From an uncultured beta proteobacterium (GTDB lineage: Bacteria; Pseudomonadota; Gammaproteobacteria; Burkholderiales; Burkholderiaceae), in NCBI GenBank assembly GCA_903938955.1, contig CAJAFJ010000409.1, positions 1 to 8,161 of the forward strand: 8,161 bases of DNA, written 5' to 3'. This document shows, piece by piece, positions 1 through 8,161 of this stretch. The notes under the pieces are model-generated. The model had not been told where the DNA came from. It was given only the letters and a program-made list of their open reading frames with translations, and ran no database searches. A program made the position numbers and the translations under genes. Within the stretch, counting starts at the first letter, position 1. The number at the start of each line of letters is the position of its first letter.

Positions 1-861
1 CGGGCGGCCAAACTGTTTGCGGTCCAGCACGTACTGGCGCGCGCGCAACCAGCAGTCTTCCGCCGCACCCAACGCGCCCCAGGCGATGCCGTAACGCGCG
101 CTGTTGAGGCAGGTGAACGGGCCTTTGAGGCCTTGCACTTCGGGGAAGGCGTTTTCTTCGGGGCAAAACACACCGTCCATCACGATTTCACCCGTGATGC
201 TGGCGCGCAGACCGACCTTGCCGTGGATGGCCGGGGCGCTCAAACCGGCCATGCCTTTTTCCAGCACAAAACCACGAATCGGGCCGACCTGGCCGCTCTC
301 GCTGACCTCTTTGGCCCAGACCACAAACACGTCGGCGATCGGGCTGTTGGAGATCCACATCTTGGCGCCGCTGAGCTTGTAACCACCGGCGACTTTTTGT
401 GCGCGGGTGATCATGGAGCCGGGGTCCGAACCGTGGTCGGGCTCAGTCAGGCCGAAGCAGCCGATCCACTCGCCGGTGGCGAGTTTGGGCAGGTATTTCT
501 GGCGCTGTGCTTCGGTGCCGAACTCAAAAATCGGCACCATCACCAGCGAACTTTGCACGCTCATCATCGAGCGGTAGCCGGAGTCCACACGTTCGACTTC
601 GCGGGCAATCAGGCCGTAGGCGACGTAGTTCAGGCCAGGGCCGCCGTAGGCTTCGGGGATCGTCGGGCCGAGCAGGCCGAGCGTGCCCATTTCACGGAAG
701 ATCGCCGCATCGGTCTGCTCTTTGCGGAAGGCTTCCACCACGCGGGGCTGCAGCTGCTCCTGGCAATAGGCGGCCGATGCGTCGCGCACCATGCGTTCGT
801 CGTCGCTGAGTTGGCTGTCCAACAAAAAGGGGTCTTGCCAGTTGAAGCTTGCGTGGGCCAT
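1..861 (-). CDS. gcdH: Glutaryl-CoA dehydrogenase, C-terminus cut off by the window edge
   Basis: FAD-dependent acyl-CoA dehydrogenase family enzyme that oxidises and decarboxylates glutaryl-CoA to crotonyl-CoA in lysine, tryptophan and glutarate breakdown in the cytoplasm. The window holds 287 codons of a family usually about 390-400 aa, so roughly the last quarter, including the expected catalytic glutamate, lies outside. Visible marks are the N-terminal helical domain, the stretch [16 protein letters not shown] at residues 91-106, which is typical of glutaryl-CoA dehydrogenases, the acyl-CoA dehydrogenase signature [14 protein letters not shown] at about 136-149, [13 protein letters not shown] at about 167-179, and DRKQFGRP at the truncated end. 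The ATG at 861 is preceded by GGAGA with 6 nt spacing, and the N-terminus [12 protein letters not shown] fits the family. It is divergent from a LysR regulator. The family call is firm; only the 3' end is missing. Confidence 0.95.
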
Positions 862-997
862 GAGAAGTCTCCAGAGAGGGGTTGGGGTAAGTGTGACGAA
901 AATAAAGGCTGCATCAGCAGCGGTGAAGGCATGGTAGCGCTGGGCACGGGGTCAGGCAAACGAAATATCGTCATTCAGTTATGCGTTTTTCTCACAT

Positions 998-1028
998 ATA
1001 AGACGTATCTCGTCTGAACCCTTCTTAT
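998..1028. promoter_or_regulatory. Inverted repeats in the gcdH upstream region, possible regulator-binding site
   Basis: AGACG-TATCT-CGTCT at 1001-1015 is a perfect 5-bp inverted repeat with a 5-bp spacer. Around it, ATAAGA (998-1003) is mirrored by TCTTAT (1023-1028). LysR-type regulators bind interrupted dyads in divergent promoter regions, so this is a plausible operator for the neighbouring regulator. The arms are short and could arise by chance in AT-rich DNA. The functional assignment is inference. Confidence 0.3.
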
Positions 1029-1087
1029 GGAAAATTGTGGGGGAATTTATAGGCAAATCTCTCATTAAATACAGGCTGAAAAATAAC

Positions 1088-1140
1088 AAATTAACAACCA
1101 TCACTCTCACTCAGAAATTGCAAAGATGTTGTGTTAATTT
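1088..1140. repeat. AT-rich inverted repeat (hairpin) between gcdH and the LysR gene
   Basis: AAATTAACA at 1088-1096 is the exact reverse complement of TGTTAATTT at 1132-1140. Pairing continues imperfectly inward (ACCATC against GATGTTG), giving a stem of about 15 bp with small bulges and a loop of about 25 nt. It could be a regulator site, a remnant terminator for something formerly encoded at 1150-1385 on the minus strand, or chance. The stem is too AT-rich for a strong intrinsic terminator. Confidence 0.4.
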
Positions 1141-1402
1141 TGCACATCAAGCCGCTCAAATCGCCAGCGCCAAGCGACTGGCCTGTTCAATCGCGCGCTT
1201 GGCAACTTGGTCGTAACGCAGCACAACATCGCCTGGCCTTTGCGCCGGTCTTGCTTATTGCGACTGGCATCGGCTTTGAGGGCTTACTCCAGTTCGTCAG
1301 AAAGGAGGTATTCGTGACTATCGACAGCCGCAGCGTTTGGGGTACTGCCTCCGCAAAAGCCAGCCAATCCAGCCGAATTTTCATGTGTATATTGCGCACA
1401 CC

Positions 1403-2323
1403 ATGCGTAGAAAAATTCCCTCCCTCCAGGCCCTCGCCTGCTTCGATGCCGCAGCCCGCCACGAAAGCTATACCCGCGCCGCGCAAGAGCTGGCGATGAC
1501 GCAAGGCGCGGTGTCGCGCCAGATCACCACGCTGGAAGAATTTTTGGGTATCGCCCTGTTCCGCCGAACCCGCCACGGCGTCGTACTGACCGAACGCGGC
1601 GCCGACTATGCCAACTCGGTGGCGCCGCGCCTGCAGGGGCTGGAGCGCGACACGCTGGACGCCATGGCCCACCAGGGCAGCGGCGGCACGATTCATCTGG
1701 CGGCGGTGCCGACCTTTGCCACCCGCTGGCTGATACCGCGCCTGCCCTTGCTGGCGGCCCGGCATCCTGAGATCACCGTGCATATCGAAACCCGCACGCG
1801 CCCGTTCATGTTTGCCGACACCCCGTTTGACGCGGCGCTGTATTCCGGCAGCCCGGAGCAGGTCAGGCACTGGGCCGGTACCCGCTCGACCCGGCTGCTG
1901 GCCGAAGACGTGGTGCCGGTGTGCAGCCCCAAATTCATGGGTGGTTTGCGCGAGTTAGCGCCCGAGGCCATGGCCCAACTGCCCTTGCTGCAACAAAGCA
2001 CACGCCCTGACGGCTGGCGCCAATGGTTTGATGCCGCGGGCGTCAGCGCGCCCCTGGCCCTGGCCGGGCCGCGCTACGAATTGTTTTCCATGACGGCGGC
2101 AGCAGCCACCCACGGCTTGGGGCTGGCGCTGGTGCCGCGTTTGTTAATCGAGGGCGAGTTGCAACGGGGCGAACTGGTGCTGGCCAGTGACCAGGCCTTT
2201 AAAGGCGAGCGCGCGTATTACCTGGTGACGCCCGAACGCAGCGACGAGCGCCCGGTGATGACCACTTTTTTGGCGTGGCTGCAGCAAGCGGCAGGGTGTC
2301 AAACCAGCGGCTCGACGCTGTAA
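1403..2323 (+). CDS. LysR-family transcriptional regulator, GcvA/GcdR-like, probable regulator of gcdH
   Basis: A 306-aa DNA-binding regulator of the usual LysR length. Residues 4-63 form the winged helix-turn-helix (SLQALACFDAAARHESYT, then AAQELAMTQGAVSRQITTLE, then FRRTRHGVVLTERG). A linker helix follows, and the effector-binding domain runs from about residue 95 to 300. The GTIHLAAVPTFATRWLIPRL start of that domain is typical of the GcvA/AmpR/TrpI/GcdR subgroup. Divergence from gcdH supports a role in controlling glutaryl-CoA catabolism, as for GcdR-type regulators; this is inference from position and subgroup. The ATG at 1403 was chosen because the N-terminus MRRKIPSLQALACFDAAARH is canonical. 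A TTG at 1337 in the same frame would add 22 unlikely residues. No clear Shine-Dalgarno precedes 1403. A TATATT at 1388-1393 would, if a -10 box, give an almost leaderless mRNA. The 3' end overlaps the convergent mutarotase gene by 25 bp. Confidence 0.93.
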   Translation: MRRKIPSLQALACFDAAARHESYTRAAQELAMTQGAVSRQITTLEEFLGIALFRRTRHGVVLTERGADYANSVAPRLQGLERDTLDAMAHQGSGGTIHLAAVPTFATRWLIPRLPLLAARHPEITVHIETRTRPFMFADTPFDAALYSGSPEQVRHWAGTRSTRLLAEDVVPVCSPKFMGGLRELAPEAMAQLPLLQQSTRPDGWRQWFDAAGVSAPLALAGPRYELFSMTAAAATHGLGLALVPRLLIEGELQRGELVLASDQAFKGERAYYLVTPERSDERPVMTTFLAWLQQAAGCQTSGSTL

Positions 2324-3204
2324 ACCGCCGTCAGCCGGTGCTCGGCGCCGGGCGCCACGCTCACCACCTGGTCCGCCGCATTGGCCGTCTCGACACACAC
2401 CATGCCACGAAAACTATCGGCGGCCATATCGCCCATCTTGCTGGTTTTTTCCACCCACGGGTTCCACACCACCGTGGCGCCCGCGCCTTGGCTGGCGATG
2501 CGGATGCGGCGCTGTAGGCCGGGGTCTTCAATCAGGCTATCCGCCGTGGGATTGAGGTAGATGCGGTCCACTTCGCCATCGACCTGAATCGGCCCCTGCT
2601 GCGTGTGGCGCGTGCTGCCCGCCACCTTGTCGAGGTACGCGCAGCCGTCCAGACCGCTGACCCGAATCTGGGCCACGTCGCTAACCTGAAAATAGGTGTG
2701 CAGCGCTTCGCCCAGCAGCATGGCGTCGGTGCCGGTGTTGCACGTGACCAGCGTCAGTTGCAAGCTACGCCCGACGGTGATCTCCAGTTCGGCCGTGGCG
2801 GGGTGCGGCCACTCGGCGCGGGTGGCCGCGGTCATCGGCAGGCCCAGGCGCAGAAAGGTTTGACCATCGGCCTGCACTCGGGTTTCCAGCACCTGCCACA
2901 GCGCCGTGCGCGCGATGCCATGGGCGGGCCGTTGGGGGTCGGTGGCATGCGGGCCAAACCAGGGCCAGCAGACCGGCACGCCGCCCCGAATCGCCTTGCC
3001 CGGCGCGTACGGGGTGCGCTCGGACATCCAAATCACCGGCGCTTGTCCCTGCGGGCAAAAATGCGTGACGTGGGCCCCTTGCAGAGCCACCGTGCAGTCG
3101 CCCAGACCGTTCGCGATCTCGGCAACAACCAAACCACCAGGGCCTTCCTTGAAGCGCAGATGGCCGGGTAGCGCGAAGGCGTCGTTAAGTTCAAGCAGCG
3201 TCAT
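2299..3204 (-). CDS. yeaD: D-hexose-6-phosphate mutarotase (glucose-6-phosphate 1-epimerase, YeaD family)
   Basis: A 301-aa cytoplasmic aldose-epimerase-fold protein that interconverts the alpha and beta anomers of hexose 6-phosphates. Family landmarks are GGVPVCWPWFGPH at about residues 74-86 after Arg73, the active-site histidine in AHGIAR (His95), a second in ALHTYF (His169), and VDRIYLNP near residue 212. VVWNPWVEK lies near 245, and CVETANA carries the probable catalytic Glu272. All key residues expected of the family appear to be present. The ATG at 3204 (MTLLELNDAF) is preferred over in-frame starts at 3222 and 3219, because a strong GAAGGA Shine-Dalgarno sits 7 nt upstream of it. The gene is convergent with the LysR gene and 161 nt downstream of the M50 protease gene, separated from it by a palindromic element. 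Nothing links it functionally to either neighbour. It could be co-transcribed with the protease operon or use its own promoter; no clear promoter was seen. Confidence 0.92.
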   Translation of the reverse strand: MTLLELNDAFALPGHLRFKEGPGGLVVAEIANGLGDCTVALQGAHVTHFCPQGQAPVIWMSERTPYAPGKAIRGGVPVCWPWFGPHATDPQRPAHGIARTALWQVLETRVQADGQTFLRLGLPMTAATRAEWPHPATAELEITVGRSLQLTLVTCNTGTDAMLLGEALHTYFQVSDVAQIRVSGLDGCAYLDKVAGSTRHTQQGPIQVDGEVDRIYLNPTADSLIEDPGLQRRIRIASQGAGATVVWNPWVEKTSKMGDMAADSFRGMVCVETANAADQVVSVAPGAEHRLTAVYSVEPLV

Positions 3205-3211
3205 GTACGTG

Positions 3212-3217
3212 TCCTTC
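3212..3217 (-). promoter_or_regulatory. Shine-Dalgarno sequence that fixes the mutarotase start
   Basis: GAAGGA on the minus strand lies 7 nt upstream of the ATG at 3204 and downstream of two other in-frame ATG codons. It therefore selects the shorter protein beginning MTLLELNDAF. Confidence 0.75.
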
Positions 3218-3262
3218 ATCAAACAAAAGCGCCATCAGACCACAGCGAGCGTGGCGTCGTTT

Positions 3263-3366
3263 ATTCCATTGCCAGATCAATACGAGATTAGGCGCGAAGT
3301 CGCAGACAGTGCTTTAGCACGGCGAAGGCGAAGCAACAACATATCGTATTGATCTGGCAATGGAAT
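3263..3366. repeat. 104-bp palindromic element with 23-bp perfect terminal inverted repeats (MITE- or REP-like)
   Basis: The left arm (3263-3285, beginning ATTCCATTGCC and ending CAATACGA) and the right arm (3344-3366) are exact reverse complements over 23 bp. The 58-bp centre contains GTGCTTTAGCAC (3309-3320), a 5-bp hairpin whose centre (3314.5) coincides exactly with that of the outer palindrome. The centre also carries GGCGAAG repeated back to back (3321-3334). If the ends are taken as TTCC...GGAA, the element is flanked on both sides by TTA (3261-3263 and 3366-3368), compatible with a 3-bp target duplication. The right TTA is the stop codon of the M50 gene read on the minus strand. It may be a small non-autonomous mobile or dispersed intergenic repeat. 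In RNA it would fold into a long stem that could protect the 3' end of the upstream operon. There is no T-rich tract, so it is not a standard intrinsic terminator. Confidence 0.85.
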
Positions 3367-5480
3367 TAAAAGCCGGTTTCCCGCACCAGCACGGCCAACG
3401 CCTGGCGCAGATAAGGCCAGGCGGGTGCCTCCCAGCGGGCGTGGAGGGTGAGCTTGCCGCGCCACGATTGCTGGGCCAGTTCGGTCATGTCCTGGGTGCT
3501 TGGCTCCAGCGCCAGGGTGACGTGGTAAATGGCGCGCTCGGGCACCAACTGGCCGCCCTTTTCACGCGTCAGAATGTGCCCGCCCAGATGCGCGGCCAAC
3601 TCAGGGCGCGGCAGTACCCGCGCGGAATCGCGGTCCACCGCCAGCACGCGCAAATGCAGGGCCGCACTTTGCGCGCCGTCGCTGATGAACAGGGCGCGGT
3701 CCCCCGCCGCCACGCGTTGCACCGCATCTTCATCCAGCCAGGTTTCGACCAGCCAGCGGCCATCGTCACGCACCAGCAGGGCGATTCTTTCTTTGCGCGA
3801 CAGCCACTGGCCGACGTGCAAATCGGGGTCCATGTCGCGCAGCTGCCCGGCAAAGGGCGCCTGCGGCGCGTAGTTGAGCAACTCGGTATCCAGGCTGGCC
3901 AGCTCGGACTGGGCCGAGGTCAGCATCACCTCATTGACCAGCCAGCGGGTGCGCGACTCGGCATCAAAGCCCGAGGCGGCAGCCTGCCAGCGCAGGCGCT
4001 CGACCTTGGCCAACAGGGCCTGCCGGCGCATTTGCAGATCCGGCACATGCAGCTGCAGCAGCACCTCGCCCGCTGCCACATGCGCGCCTTCCGGGTGTGG
4101 CAGGGCATCGATGCGGGCACCGGCGGGCGCATACACCGGCCACACCTCGGCCGGGCGCAACAAGCCGCTGACGCTGACGCGGCCCGGCCAAGGCAGCAGC
4201 ACCAGCAACACCAGCCCGGCGAACAGCGCCGCACTGAAACGGCTGCGCCGACGGGTGCGAATCTCGGGCCAGCGCTGCTGCCAGGCCTGAAATTCACGCT
4301 TGAAGGGCAGCAACACAAACCACAGCATCTCGATCACAAACAAGCCAATCCCCACCAGCTTGATGAAGAAGTGGTAGACCAGCACGGCAATGCCCAAAAA
4401 CAGCACCAGCCGGTACAGCCAGGTGGCCCAGGCAAAGGCGATCAGGCCCAGTTGCTGGCGTGGCGGCACGTGCTCAGGCGGGTCTTCGCCCAGGTCAAAC
4501 AACTGCTCACGCAGCTTCCAGCGCGCCAGCGCAAAACTGCGCTCGTGCAGGTTGGGCATGTCGAGCCAATCTGACAGGATAAAGTAGCCGTCAAAGCGCA
4601 TGAACGGGCTGGCATTGATGGCCAGCGTGGCGACCCAGCTGATGGTGGCCAGCACAAAGGCGGCGGTGCGCACGGCGCCATCGGGCAGCAGGCTCCAAGC
4701 CAGCGTGGCCCAGGCGGCAATGACCAACTCGGTGGCAATGCCGGCGGCGGCCACTTGCAGGCGCTGCAGGCGGTTGGTGAGCCGCCAAGTGTCGTTGGTG
4801 TCGGTGTAGGCCACCGGCCACATCACCAGAAATGCCACGCCCATGGTGGGCACCCGGCAGCCCAGGCGCTTGGCGGTAAAGGCGTGGCCCAGCTCATGCA
4901 GCAGCTTGACCACAAACAGCGCCACGCCGTAGGCCGCCAGCCCTTCCCAGTTGAAGGTGTCGACCAGCGAGGCACTGAAACTCTCCCAGCGGCGCACCAC
5001 TTGGGTCAGGCCCAGCAGCAGCGCGGCGCCGGTCAGCCAGGCAAACGGGCGGCTGTAAAACACCCCGGCCACGCCTTGCCAGCGGCCCAGCCAGGCGTCC
5101 GGGCGCAGCAGCGGAATCCGAAAAAACAGGTAGTGGTGCAGCAGCCATTTCCACACGCTGCCCTGCATCTGGGCCAGCCGGTCGGCCAGTTGGCGCGCGC
5201 TTTGTGCGCCGCCCGGCTGGGTTAGCTGGTTGCTCACCAAAAACTGCGCTACACCCAGCACATCGTCGGCCTCAAGGTGCAGGGGCGTGGCCTCGCAGAC
5301 GGCTTGTGCGATGACGGGCGGGTCGTCCAGCGACCAGCGCTGCAGCACCTCAAAGGTCGGCCAGTCAATGCGGAAAAACACATTGCGCACCGGGTCGTGC
5401 AGCGTCCAGCTGGGCTGGCCATCAGGCAGCACCGGCCCTGGCAGCAGGGCCAGTTCTTCGCGTAAAGGGGGCAGCGCCAT
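3366..5480 (-). CDS. M50-family (site-2-protease type) membrane zinc metalloprotease fused to a HlyD-like lipoyl/barrel domain
   Basis: A 704-aa inner-membrane protein. Residues about 22-88 ([20 protein letters not shown] onwards) resemble a PqqD-like winged-helix peptide-binding domain. The protease core holds HELGH at 195-199 (zinc ligands His195 and His199, catalytic Glu196) and the second M50 motif, Asn289-x2-Pro292-x4-Asp297-Gly298, which supplies the third zinc ligand. Roughly seven or eight hydrophobic segments lie between about 140 and 430. After the last one (about 415-430) comes a periplasmic HlyD-like region: a lipoyl half-motif near 445-480 ([27 protein letters not shown]), a helical hairpin near 482-535, the second lipoyl half and a beta-barrel near 540-680. 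The catalytic residues are intact, so it is probably active. It starts 3 nt after the stop of the membrane-fusion gene, with only a weak Shine-Dalgarno, suggesting translational coupling. The substrate is unknown; the neighbouring surface protein is the natural candidate. Similar M50 proteins are annotated as peptide zinc metalloproteases in export loci. Confidence 0.9.
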
Positions 5481-5483
5481 GCG

Positions 5484-6875
5484 CTAGACGCCCAGGGTCG
5501 AGCGCACGGTCGCCAAGGGTCGGCGCAGCACCCAGTACATCAGCGGCACCCAACGACCGTGCAACTTGGCCGTGCCTTTGAGGCCGACGCGGTGCTCGGT
5601 TGGCGCCTCCAGCGTGGCGCGCACCCGGTAGGCAAAACTGCCGTCCGGGCGTTGCACGGCGTCGTGCGCCATGTAGCGCAAGTGGGCGGAGACGGAAAAC
5701 AAGGGGCTGGCGTTCAGGTACAAACTCACCGCCGAACCGGTGGGCAGCGCAATCGCGTCCGCCAGCGGCAGCCAGGCTTCGACCTCTGCATCGCTCGGGG
5801 CGGCGATACGCATAATGCGTTCGCCCACCGCCACCGGGCGACCGATCCACTCGGTCGGGTCGTCGAACAGGGCGACGCCGTCTTGCGGTGCCAGCACGCG
5901 GGCACGGCTGAGCTGCTCTTGCAGAAAATCAACCTCCGCGCGCTTTTCTTCAATCTTGCCGGTCAACATGGCCAGCTGGGGCTTGGCCTTGGCGTCGGTC
6001 AGCGCTTGCTGCGAGGTTTGGCGGTACTCGGTCTCGGCGGTGGCCAGGGCTTGGGCGGCGACCTCCAGACGGCTCTGGATCAGGGCCTCGTCAAAGCCAA
6101 ACAGGGACTGGTCTTTTTTGACCCGCTCATTGGGCTGCACATGAAACACATCCACCACCCCATCCAGCGGCGCGCGAATCACCACCGGGTGCGCAGGCAC
6201 CAACTCGCCCGGCGCCAACACGGTGAGGCGCACCGGAAACGCCAGCACGGCCAGCTCCAGCGCGCTCCAACGCAGCGCGGGTTGCTGCCACCAGCGGCGA
6301 TCCGGCTGGCGCGCAAAACGGGTTTTCACGCGTGTCAATAACGTGCGCCAGGAGGCGCCGCGGGGCCGGTGCAGCGCGGCAAACGCATGCCACGCCACGT
6401 CGACCCACTCGCGCAGCAAAGCCAGTTCTTCCGGCGACCAGGGCAGGTCGCGCACCAGCAACAGCCCGGCCGAGGCCGCAGCTTCTGGCGCTGTGCCGGT
6501 CCCCGGCAAGGCCAGCCACAGCGCATGGCCGGGCCACCACTCCAGCCAGTCTTGCGCCAGCTCGGGCGGCAAGTCGGCGGCAGTTAAAGCACGGGTGGGA
6601 CTGTCAGGCTGCCCGGCCAGGTAACGACACACCTGGGCCAGCCACAACGCATAAGGCGCATTGGCCTCCACTTGCACCAGGCCCGACAAAGTGTGCACGC
6701 CCTCGCCCGCCAGCCAGAACGCCGACTGCCGGTAAGGCGCCAGCGCATGCGTGTCATTGGCAAGCAAAAAGCCCAGCTCGCGCGCACTGCCCGCCAACCG
6801 GGCGCGACGCGACAAATCCAGCAGCGCCGCGAGGGACTGAACCGCGTCCGGGACGCGCCCGCTGGTCTCGGTCAT
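5484..6875 (-). CDS. HlyD-family membrane-fusion (periplasmic adaptor) protein with a GAF-like N-terminal domain
   Basis: A 463-aa protein. Residues about 15-170 form a soluble domain with a GAF-like pattern (LLDLSRRARLAGSARELGFL, then a strand-rich core and a final helix SPEELALLREWVDVAWHAFA). A basic stretch (180-194) and one membrane segment near 200-222 follow; that segment is imperfect, containing Glu207 and Arg216. The periplasmic part has a lipoyl half-motif (VIRAPLDGVVDVFHVQPNERV, 232-252), a coiled-coil hairpin at about 263-326, the second half (RVLAPQDGVALF, 326-337) and a barrel domain to about 430. This is the adaptor architecture that bridges inner-membrane machinery to an outer-membrane pore. 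The ATG at 6875 overlaps the upstream stop as TGATG; a TTG one codon earlier is possible but less likely. The C-terminus (GTAKLHGRW...LRRPLA) matches the C-terminus of the downstream M50 protein, so the two are probably related periplasmic partners. The GAF assignment is weaker than the HlyD assignment. Confidence 0.9.
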   Translation of the reverse strand: MTETSGRVPDAVQSLAALLDLSRRARLAGSARELGFLLANDTHALAPYRQSAFWLAGEGVHTLSGLVQVEANAPYALWLAQVCRYLAGQPDSPTRALTAADLPPELAQDWLEWWPGHALWLALPGTGTAPEAAASAGLLLVRDLPWSPEELALLREWVDVAWHAFAALHRPRGASWRTLLTRVKTRFARQPDRRWWQQPALRWSALELAVLAFPVRLTVLAPGELVPAHPVVIRAPLDGVVDVFHVQPNERVKKDQSLFGFDEALIQSRLEVAAQALATAETEYRQTSQQALTDAKAKPQLAMLTGKIEEKRAEVDFLQEQLSRARVLAPQDGVALFDDPTEWIGRPVAVGERIMRIAAPSDAEVEAWLPLADAIALPTGSAVSLYLNASPLFSVSAHLRYMAHDAVQRPDGSFAYRVRATLEAPTEHRVGLKGTAKLHGRWVPLMYWVLRRPLATVRSTLGV

Positions 6876-8161
6876 CAAGCGCGCGCCTGCGCCTGACGCG
6901 CAACAGCATGCTCACGTGCCGGCGGCAGCTTGTCAGCACCGGCCTTGTGGCTGGGTGACTGCACCAGGTCCAGCCACGGCGTGGAGCGCTTGGCAGCCAG
7001 ACGAATTTGCTCGCTCAGGCTGCTACGGCTGGAGGTGTTGGCTTTGCCTTTGCCCTCGCCGACAGAGAACTTGAAGATGGAACTGGCTTCGCGGCCTTCG
7101 CTGTCGCGGGCGATCACCTTGATCTGCAACTCTTCATTGAAACCATCGGGTGGGTTCAACTTGAAGGTCCCCGAGCGCGCATCAAACTGAACCCAGGCCG
7201 GCAGGTCTTCACCATTCGCCAACTTGGCCGTGATCGCGATCACGGCATCGGCCTTGGTATGCACAAAGGCATCGGCGGGCAAGGAGAAGGTGGCGGGCTT
7301 GTTGCCTTCAATGAACTGGTCGGTGATGCCGCGGAACACCGTGAGACCGGGGGTGGGCGCTTCGCTCACAGCGACCCGGAAGCCCGACGCACTGGTCAAG
7401 ATTTCACCGATCGATGCCGCTCTTTCAGGGATGGGCAGGGGCGATGGCGTGGTCACTACGGTGGCGGAATCAAACGTGGGTGCGGGGACTGGCGCGGGTT
7501 CAACCGGGGCAGTTGGTGCTGGCGGAGCTTCAGGGGCAATGACTGGGGCGGGGGGCGGCTCTACAGGGGCAGGTGGGGGAACGCGGTCATCATCCGGGGT
7601 GCCCAATGGATCGATCACGCCCTGGTCGTCGTAGACCTTGCCGCTGCCGTCATCGACGATGCTGGCGGTGTCGCTGGCGCTCGCACCTGCGGTGACCGCC
7701 GCTGTCAGCGTAAAGTCTTCCGCGCCTTCGAGTACTTTCGGGCTGTCCGCTGTGGTCGCCACGCTCACGAAGAAGCTGGTCACCCCGGCGGGCAGGCTGA
7801 TTTTGCCGCCCGTGATGGTGAGGCTGGTCTTGGTCGCGCCCACGTAGTAGTAGGCCGTCAGGCTGCTGCTGTAGTCCGCCGCCAGCGCCGTGTCACCACC
7901 GGTGCCCAGCGTCAGGCTGATCTCAGTGGCGCTGGCCGAGGCGTTGCTCAAAACCACGGTGAAGATCGCGTTGCTGCCTTCGGAGACGTCGTCTTTGCCG
8001 GTGACGGTCAGGGTTGGGCGGTCATTGTCGGGGCCAACGAGTGGGTTCGGGCCATAAGGGCCAGGGCCCGTGCCGTCGTCCAGGATCGTGCCCACGCCCG
8101 TGGCGTCGCTGATGGTGCTGCCTGCGCTGTTGTTGGACAGCGTGACGGTGAAGGTCTCGCC
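6875..8161 (-). CDS. C-terminal part of a large Calx-beta/cadherin-like surface protein (5' end outside the window)
   Basis: The reading frame stays open to the right edge, giving 428 residues of what is probably a much larger adhesin-like protein. The segment opens with the end of one Calx-beta-like repeat (GETFTVTLSNNSAG). A full one covers about residues 43-171, with SEGSNAIFTVVLSNAS and LEGAEDFTLTAAV as typical strands. Each repeat ends with a similar Asp-rich linker (ILDDGTG...PDNDRP and IVDDGSG...PDDDRV), the kind that often binds calcium. A Pro/Ala linker spans 195-229. A putative cadherin/dystroglycan-like Ig domain lies at about 275-368, with LPAWVQFDARSGTFKLNPP and IKVIARDSEGREAS as key strands. 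The last 60 residues are basic and low in complexity, without RTX nonapeptides or a typical type I secretion tail. The stop overlaps the next gene's ATG. It is probably the exported substrate of the two downstream proteins; this is inferred from the gene order. Confidence 0.88.
   Translation of the reverse strand, partial: GETFTVTLSNNSAGSTISDATGVGTILDDGTGPGPYGPNPLVGPDNDRPTLTVTGKDDVSEGSNAIFTVVLSNASASATEISLTLGTGGDTALAADYSSSLTAYYYVGATKTSLTITGGKISLPAGVTSFFVSVATTADSPKVLEGAEDFTLTAAVTAGASASDTASIVDDGSGKVYDDQGVIDPLGTPDDDRVPPPAPVEPPPAPVIAPEAPPAPTAPVEPAPVPAPTFDSATVVTTPSPLPIPERAASIGEILTSASGFRVAVSEAPTPGLTVFRGITDQFIEGNKPATFSLPADAFVHTKADAVIAITAKLANGEDLPAWVQFDARSGTFKLNPPDGFNEELQIKVIARDSEGREASSIFKFSVGEGKGKANTSSRSSLSEQIRLAAKRSTPWLDLVQSPSHKAGADKLPPAREHAVARQAQARA
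7475..7579 (-). other. Pro/Ala-rich linker coding stretch within the surface protein
   Basis: About 35 residues (195-229 of the visible protein) are built almost entirely from Pro, Ala, Val and Glu, in degenerate PPAPVEP and PAPV units. Such segments usually act as rigid spacers, for example across the periplasm or cell wall, between folded domains. Here it separates the Calx-beta repeats from the C-terminal cadherin-like domain. Confidence 0.7.

Follow-up and report, generated by a model that had tools for sequence, protein, structure and literature searches.

The closest described relatives of the locus analysed here are the type I secretion systems (T1SSs; LssB/LapB, HlyB and PrtD types), in which a dedicated ATP-binding cassette (ABC) exporter is encoded with an adaptor and TolC set and the substrate has an uncleaved C-terminal secretion signal, and Lap adhesin retention, in which a giant adhesin is held by a TolC-type anchor and a protease acts near its N-terminus. 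Two further backgrounds are relevant: M50 proteases cut within membranes (S2P/RseP), and recognition elements (RREs) are typical of the pathways that make ribosomally synthesised and post-translationally modified peptides (RiPPs). Our locus lies in a stretch of 8,161 nucleotides (hereafter the window) from an uncultured beta proteobacterium (GenBank assembly GCA_903938955.1, contig CAJAFJ010000409.1, positions 1 to 8,161). On its minus strand the window holds the C-terminal part of a giant surface protein, a GAF-HlyD adaptor and a protein that joins an M50 zinc protease to an HlyD-like adaptor (M50-HlyD), which together form the 3′ part of a larger cluster. Analysis of its relatives suggests that the cluster is an as yet undescribed means by which very large bacterial proteins are exported or finished.

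The module shares with T1SSs a TolC-type protein, HlyD-type adaptors and a repetitive surface protein of great length that shows no evident Sec signal. Unlike T1SSs, it lacks a conserved ABC gene and has a protease-adaptor fusion with an RRE-like domain, as well as a conserved N-terminal tag on the giant. Since no ABC gene is conserved, it is not a type I system by the defining feature of that class: in relatives, no dedicated ABC exporter is encoded with the adaptor/TolC set. Tripartite efflux pumps have an energised inner-membrane transporter, according to the accessible part of PMC8277102, in whose searched text the word M50 does not occur; unlike MacAB-TolC or MexAB-OprM, the module has no conserved resistance-nodulation-division (RND), major facilitator superfamily or ABC transporter gene. 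RiPP systems (those with the B1 RREs of lasso peptides, and those with the daptide and LiaK M50 proteases) likewise offer an RRE-like fold and an M50 protease, but the candidate substrate of the module is the neighbouring giant, and the RRE-like domain, the protease and the adaptor are one chain. By analogy with Lap retention, the module would bring together a giant, a TolC-type protein and a protease acting near the N-terminus, although here the protease is a zinc membrane protease fused to an adaptor. Finally, the Aat composite system, as presented in the accessible part of PMC7943197, also places T1SS-like elements in a separately classed system, but its substrate is a glycine-acylated lipoprotein.

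In the window, the M50-HlyD gene (3366..5480, minus strand) encodes a 704-residue fusion of an RRE-like domain, an M50 zinc protease and an HlyD/MacA-like adaptor. It is separated by a 3-nt gap from the gene of the 463-residue GAF-HlyD adaptor (5484..6875, minus strand), whose start in turn overlaps the stop of the surface-protein gene in a TGATG (6873..6877, minus strand), confirming the arrangement of three adjoining genes put forward in the initial annotation. The surface-protein gene is represented by its last 428 codons (6875..8161, minus strand), the N-terminus lying beyond the window edge. Pfam matches in the window proteins are M50, HlyD_3 and He_PIG, the last at residues 279–367 of the surface-protein piece; the Calx-beta repeats that had been ascribed to the surface protein found no support within the part in the window. 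The conserved C-terminal motif of the giants, SRSSLSEQIRLAAKR in the window, stands at 6986..7030 (minus strand). The TolC gene, the third adaptor and the giant's tag of the window cluster would lie outside the window and were read from relatives. At the 3′ end of the M50-HlyD gene we also observed an inverted repeat (3260–3369) with 29-nt arms that are 93% complementary and 52 nt apart. It overlaps the last bases of the gene, a 20-nt arm of it had no exact copy in 205 loci, and it is possibly a terminator or a small mobile element.

To define the complete cluster we relied on a scan of genome contigs, which matched at least 597 stretches, at least 589 of them relatives; the best 80 loci were used. 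The GAF-HlyD gene is directly upstream of the M50-HlyD gene in 78 of the 80, while the remaining two loci (L007 and L015) begin inside or just before the M50-HlyD gene. The N-terminal tag of the giant is visible in 33 of the 80 loci, and in 31 of these 33 a TolC-type gene and an RND-type adaptor gene are clustered with it; in the other two (L027 and L061) the contig ends where these genes would stand. All 31 complete loci therefore have the TolC-type gene, although in one of them (L013) it is partial, being interrupted by the contig edge. These counts are conditional on a visible tag, loci such as L021, L041 and L078 not having been extended upstream, and two loci (L005 and L053) contain runs of N. 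The TolC assignment is supported by OEP domain matches in two relatives (E 1.6e-24 and 5.9e-32). Thus the cluster, which occurs in many water and soil bacteria, consists of a TolC-type outer-membrane protein, an RND-type adaptor, the giant surface protein, the GAF-HlyD adaptor and the M50-HlyD protease: the three-gene surface-protein module of the initial annotation survives as a distinct module without a conserved ABC gene, but has five genes.

The order of these genes varies. The commonest is TolC, RND-type adaptor, giant, GAF-HlyD, M50-HlyD; in L044 and L047 the giant is on the other strand and the order is TolC, RND-type adaptor, GAF-HlyD, M50-HlyD; in E. coli, Variovorax, L109 and L118 the giant precedes TolC, RND-type adaptor, GAF-HlyD and M50-HlyD; and in second copies of Pseudomonas the RND-type adaptor, GAF-HlyD and M50-HlyD come before the giant and TolC. 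In plasmid records the parts are annotated as TolC family, RND periplasmic adaptor and HlyD, and a fourth as HlyD, peptidase or biotin/lipoyl-binding protein. One E. coli plasmid, pABWA45_1 (L083/L085), carries a complete module whose giant (DUF4347, cadherin-like) spans 13.4 kb, with insertion sequence elements on either side of the module. A relative's four-gene set, used as query, matched 24 of 5,426 complete E. coli genomes, in 22 of these along 80% or more of its length, and 21 of the 25 places matched are on plasmids. The M50-HlyD family is large, its profile matching 6,187 of 7,998 scored candidate clusters at E ≤ 1e-10. In three Burkholderiales loci (L039, L050 and L076), a protein that we named by eye as Sel1-repeat-like is encoded directly upstream of the giant.

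Near their start the giants carry a basic stretch and a LExRxxFD[GA] tag, which was visible by eye in 14 of the 16 giants inspected before any regular expression was used. In L026 the tag sits in the ORF (open reading frame) immediately upstream of the giant ORF, and no tag is seen in L012, where the ORF begins 154 bases from a contig end. Later tags were sought with a regular expression in which L, E, R, F and D are fixed, and the invariance of these columns is therefore partly built in; among 539 background ORFs the expression matched one, which belongs to the giant of L026 as its N-terminal part. In several module giants, though not in others, the tag exceeds the 17-bit cut-off of the NCBIfam model LEPR-XLL (NF012209), which names the tag only and gives no partner or function. 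At the other end, a motif near GRxxLSEQLRxA, also present in the window, was located by a relaxed regular expression in 69 of 76 type-A rows versus 3 of 539 background ORFs, 14 further rows having been excluded because an adaptor rather than a giant lies upstream. Of the seven misses, four (L009, L011, L034 and L082) seem to be genuine giant ends that lack the motif, two (L069 and L071) are apparently in the wrong frame, and L042 yielded no ORF. The size of these proteins is illustrated by Limnohabitans sp. T6-5, where a single ORF of 17,576 codons with a LEPR-XLL-like tag, read from L065 joined with L112, L158 and L159, stands between TolC-RND and GAF-HlyD-M50-HlyD; LEPR-XLL ORFs in other genomes reach 19,427 codons. 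A giant gene of up to 42 kb has been reported in Polynucleobacter (PMC5644125), and the accessible text of that paper does not contain the word 'secretion'.

The tag and the protease are strongly associated across genomes. To assess this, 150 genomes were taken from the phylum to which the Limnohabitans T6-5 genome belongs (G028; Pseudomonadota). The M50-HlyD profile was found in 81 of them at E ≤ 1e-12 and in 60 at E ≤ 1e-30, the latter cut being chosen after a gap between 4.8e-32 and 9.2e-17 had been seen. The tag profile (E ≤ 0.01) matches 52 of the 150 genomes and LEPR-XLL (E ≤ 1e-4) matches 24, all 24 within the 60 M50-HlyD genomes. By either profile, a tag is present in 55 of the 60 versus 2 of the 90 others, where the two matches are ORFs of 131 and 82 codons; with G028 left out the figures are 54 of 59 versus 2 of 90 (Fisher p 4e-32, with no correction for phylogeny). 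Among 114 tag hits, 54 have a listed M50-HlyD gene on the same contig, and in 51 of these cases it is within 12 kb; for this count the M50-HlyD list stopped at about E 1e-105. In nine loci read on long contigs from the same draw, the adaptor, GAF-HlyD and M50-HlyD genes are present in 9/9 and TolC in 8/9. We also hand-picked seven canonical LEPR-XLL giants, long ORFs of 8,600–14,200 codons at other sites in multi-copy genomes. The four for which both flanks are available have an M50-HlyD neighbour that is 26–32% identical, and the association therefore reaches a second M50-HlyD clade. Taken together, these results indicate that the tagged giant and the M50-HlyD cluster are very probably a dedicated pair of substrate and machine.

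The M50-HlyD protein itself combines an RRE-like region (residues 2–89), the protease and an adaptor part (about 428–691), and the HlyD-like half that had been attributed to the protease is borne out by Pfam (M50 plus HlyD_3). Its catalytic residues, HELGH at 195–199 and D297, correspond to the HExxH and distal metal-ligand motif of M50/site-2 proteases and are invariant in 25 of 25 members. The structure model of its N-terminus has the winged-helix β3-α3 leader-binding fold of RREs, which at the level of fold points to a domain of the leader-recognition type and so would tie the protease in a concrete way to its candidate substrate. The GAF-HlyD adaptor is modelled as a GAF-fold domain (about 6–173), a helix (199–212) that is taken as a membrane helix and a MacA-like adaptor (about 214–445); its GAF label stands as a fold-level match and does not extend beyond that. 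For both models the best 50 Foldseek rows are adaptor structures only, so that the RRE and GAF assignments rest on the VIA rows. For the membrane core of M50-HlyD, no M50 structure is among the best 50 VIA rows, and a sequence search against solved structures gave M50 matches only at E 0.17. HlyD_3 is present in both window proteins, placing them among HlyD-type membrane fusion proteins, while the type_I_hlyD subfamily model gives 23.8 bits, below its cut-off of 208.65.

We propose, with confidence that is finely balanced, that the cluster is a module dedicated to the export and maturation of a single giant surface protein with a non-classical tag, and that it has no dedicated ABC ATPase. The cytoplasmic RRE-like domain of the M50-HlyD protein would bind the LExRxxFD[GA] tag at the N-terminus of the giant; the chain would cross the envelope via the adaptor half of M50-HlyD, the GAF-HlyD adaptor, the RND-type adaptor and the TolC-type protein; the M50 active site would remove the tag, thereby releasing or maturing the chain; and the GAF domain might gate the process, all without the involvement of a dedicated ABC ATPase. 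The proposal starts from what was computed directly, namely the gene content of the relatives, the tag, the RRE- and GAF-like folds in the models, the invariant catalytic residues and the tag-protease association; binding, cleavage, route, topology, regulation and energy source are predicted. Judging from fold and co-occurrence, recognition of the tag by the RRE-like domain and its cleavage by the M50 protease are reasonably probable. ABC-independent export through an adaptor-TolC conduit, as gene content would have it, could go either way. More tentative, and rather short of even, is the general formulation of a hitherto undescribed Gram-negative secretion system: a leader-guided, ABC-independent conduit, with the M50-HlyD protein as its hub, that would export and trim giants, LEPR-XLL marking its substrates and the energy coming from something other than a dedicated ATPase.

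Several observations weigh against this proposal. The RRE assignment is model-based, and its support from sequence is weak: the hhalign probability is 20%, in a comparison that is itself weak, about one third of its 21 PqqD rows looking like wrong-strand translations. Pfam PqqD had no match in the 25 M50-HlyD members, and for this reason we make the RRE claim at the level of fold. One locus (L038) has the M50-HlyD and GAF-HlyD genes, yet about 46 kb of upstream sequence gave no match to TolC or RND; a run of N (a scaffold gap) breaks up the giant of this locus, and L126, a further copy within that genome, has both the TolC and the RND gene. A Magnetospirillum plasmid module (L081) has only an untagged 492-residue protein (12451–13929) in the place of the giant, possibly a truncated giant, with ELWxxDGT repeats and a C-terminus resembling that of giants. 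The initial annotation had regarded adaptor and protease without such a surface protein as evidence against a joint module: the 55 M50-HlyD genomes above do have a tagged ORF, but 5 of the 60 have none. Moreover, the other three of the seven canonical LEPR-XLL giants run into contig ends, and their visible 5′ flank has no M50-HlyD gene. Lastly, no energised transporter was identified for the module.

The strongest alternative, which we nevertheless consider unlikely, is that a type I ABC transporter encoded elsewhere exports the giant, and that the module itself retains, processes or releases the giant in the manner of LapA/LapG/LapD, with the M50 protease cutting the N-terminus and the GAF domain sensing a signal. 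The TolC and HlyD-type parts of the module do resemble those of T1SSs, but in relatives the module carries its own TolC and three adaptor-type proteins. An adjacent complete ABC transporter and TolC set, which the initial annotation had seen as an explanation that would displace its own, is there only by half: TolC is general, whereas 6 of the 31 complete loci contain ABC motifs, and only one of these is of exporter type. This locus, L049, has a HlyB-like ABC protein of 709 residues directly after M50-HlyD, followed by RTX-type genes (12208–22094); the motifs of the other five are in ORFs of 265–397 codons whose distances vary, two such ORFs preceding TolC by about 2 kb. Two further cases also speak for a type I exporter. 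In L126 an exporter-like ABC gene of 619 codons lies about 3 kb past M50-HlyD (379 bits against the LssB model, below cut-off), and in G104 an exporter-like ABC ORF of 614 codons is on the opposite strand, convergent with TolC and just past it. ABC motifs were found in 2 of the 9 independent loci of the 150-genome draw, one of the two being this G104 ORF. On plasmid pMSR-1, ABC_tran had no match, while the circular E. coli plasmid has three ABC_tran matches, one of them below the family cut-off; measured round the circle, about 28 kb separate the module from the nearest of the three. An ABC gene as a conserved part of the module was rejected, with L049, L126 and G104 as exceptions.

The same alternative draws further support from the rest of the genome, since T1SS ABC genes are present in most module genomes. 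An LssB-type ABC gene scores above cut-off in 22 of 40 module genomes; of the 18 others, 12 have PrtD and 1 has HlyB, and the last 5 have weaker ABC hits, one of them close to the LssB cut-off. Within the 150 genomes, LssB-like genes (E ≤ 1e-130) are also more frequent with M50-HlyD (48 of 60) than without it (26 of 90). At the same threshold, however, LssB-like and PrtD genes are both absent from 9 of the 60 M50-HlyD genomes, HlyB-type genes not having been searched. Among these nine is G132, which has the giant, TolC, RND-type adaptor, GAF-HlyD and M50-HlyD genes together on one contig of 4,136,480 bases, equal to the stated genome size, so that the genome is apparently closed. A T1SS acting in trans thus does not look like an obligatory partner of the module.

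Less likely still is a two-step route, in which the giant would pass SecYEG with an atypical N-terminus, the M50 protease would serve as an alternative signal-peptide protease, and passage from the periplasm outward would fall to the adaptors and TolC. Intramembrane cleavage by M50 proteases would suit such a role, but the tag region is rich in Arg, its LExRxxFD core is polar, and inspection by eye shows no evident core of a signal peptide, even though its hydropathy values overlap those of true signal peptides. A partial precedent is the Aat system, in which T1SS-like elements are joined with Lol-like ones to serve a surface lipoprotein (PMC7943197, accessible part). That the protease set acts on other, small peptides, and is near giants incidentally, is very improbable: RREs are at home in RiPP pathways and the M50 region resembles the daptide intramembrane protease model NF041824 (155.6 bits, E 2e-45, under the cut-off of 300), but the strong co-occurrence with tagged giants holds in several gene orders and in a second, distant M50 clade.

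We found no description of the module or of the tag pairing in the literature searched, which excluded bioRxiv and most subscription journals. The parts belong to known families, and relative to that literature the analysis suggests that their combination and the pairing with the tag are new. For the LEPR-XLL tag, a marker of very long bacterial ORFs, a partner and a function can now be proposed. If the export-and-maturation proposal is true, leader recognition of the RiPP type is used for giant proteins, and if export needs no ABC ATPase, the driving force across two membranes becomes a testable question.

The remainder of the window holds three other genes. An acyl-CoA dehydrogenase-like gene (1–861, minus strand) and a gene for a GcvA-like LysR regulator (1337–2323, plus strand) are both below the listed NCBIfam cut-offs. 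The third is a 307-residue ORF (2299–3222, minus strand) with no NCBIfam match, which resembles a mutarotase.

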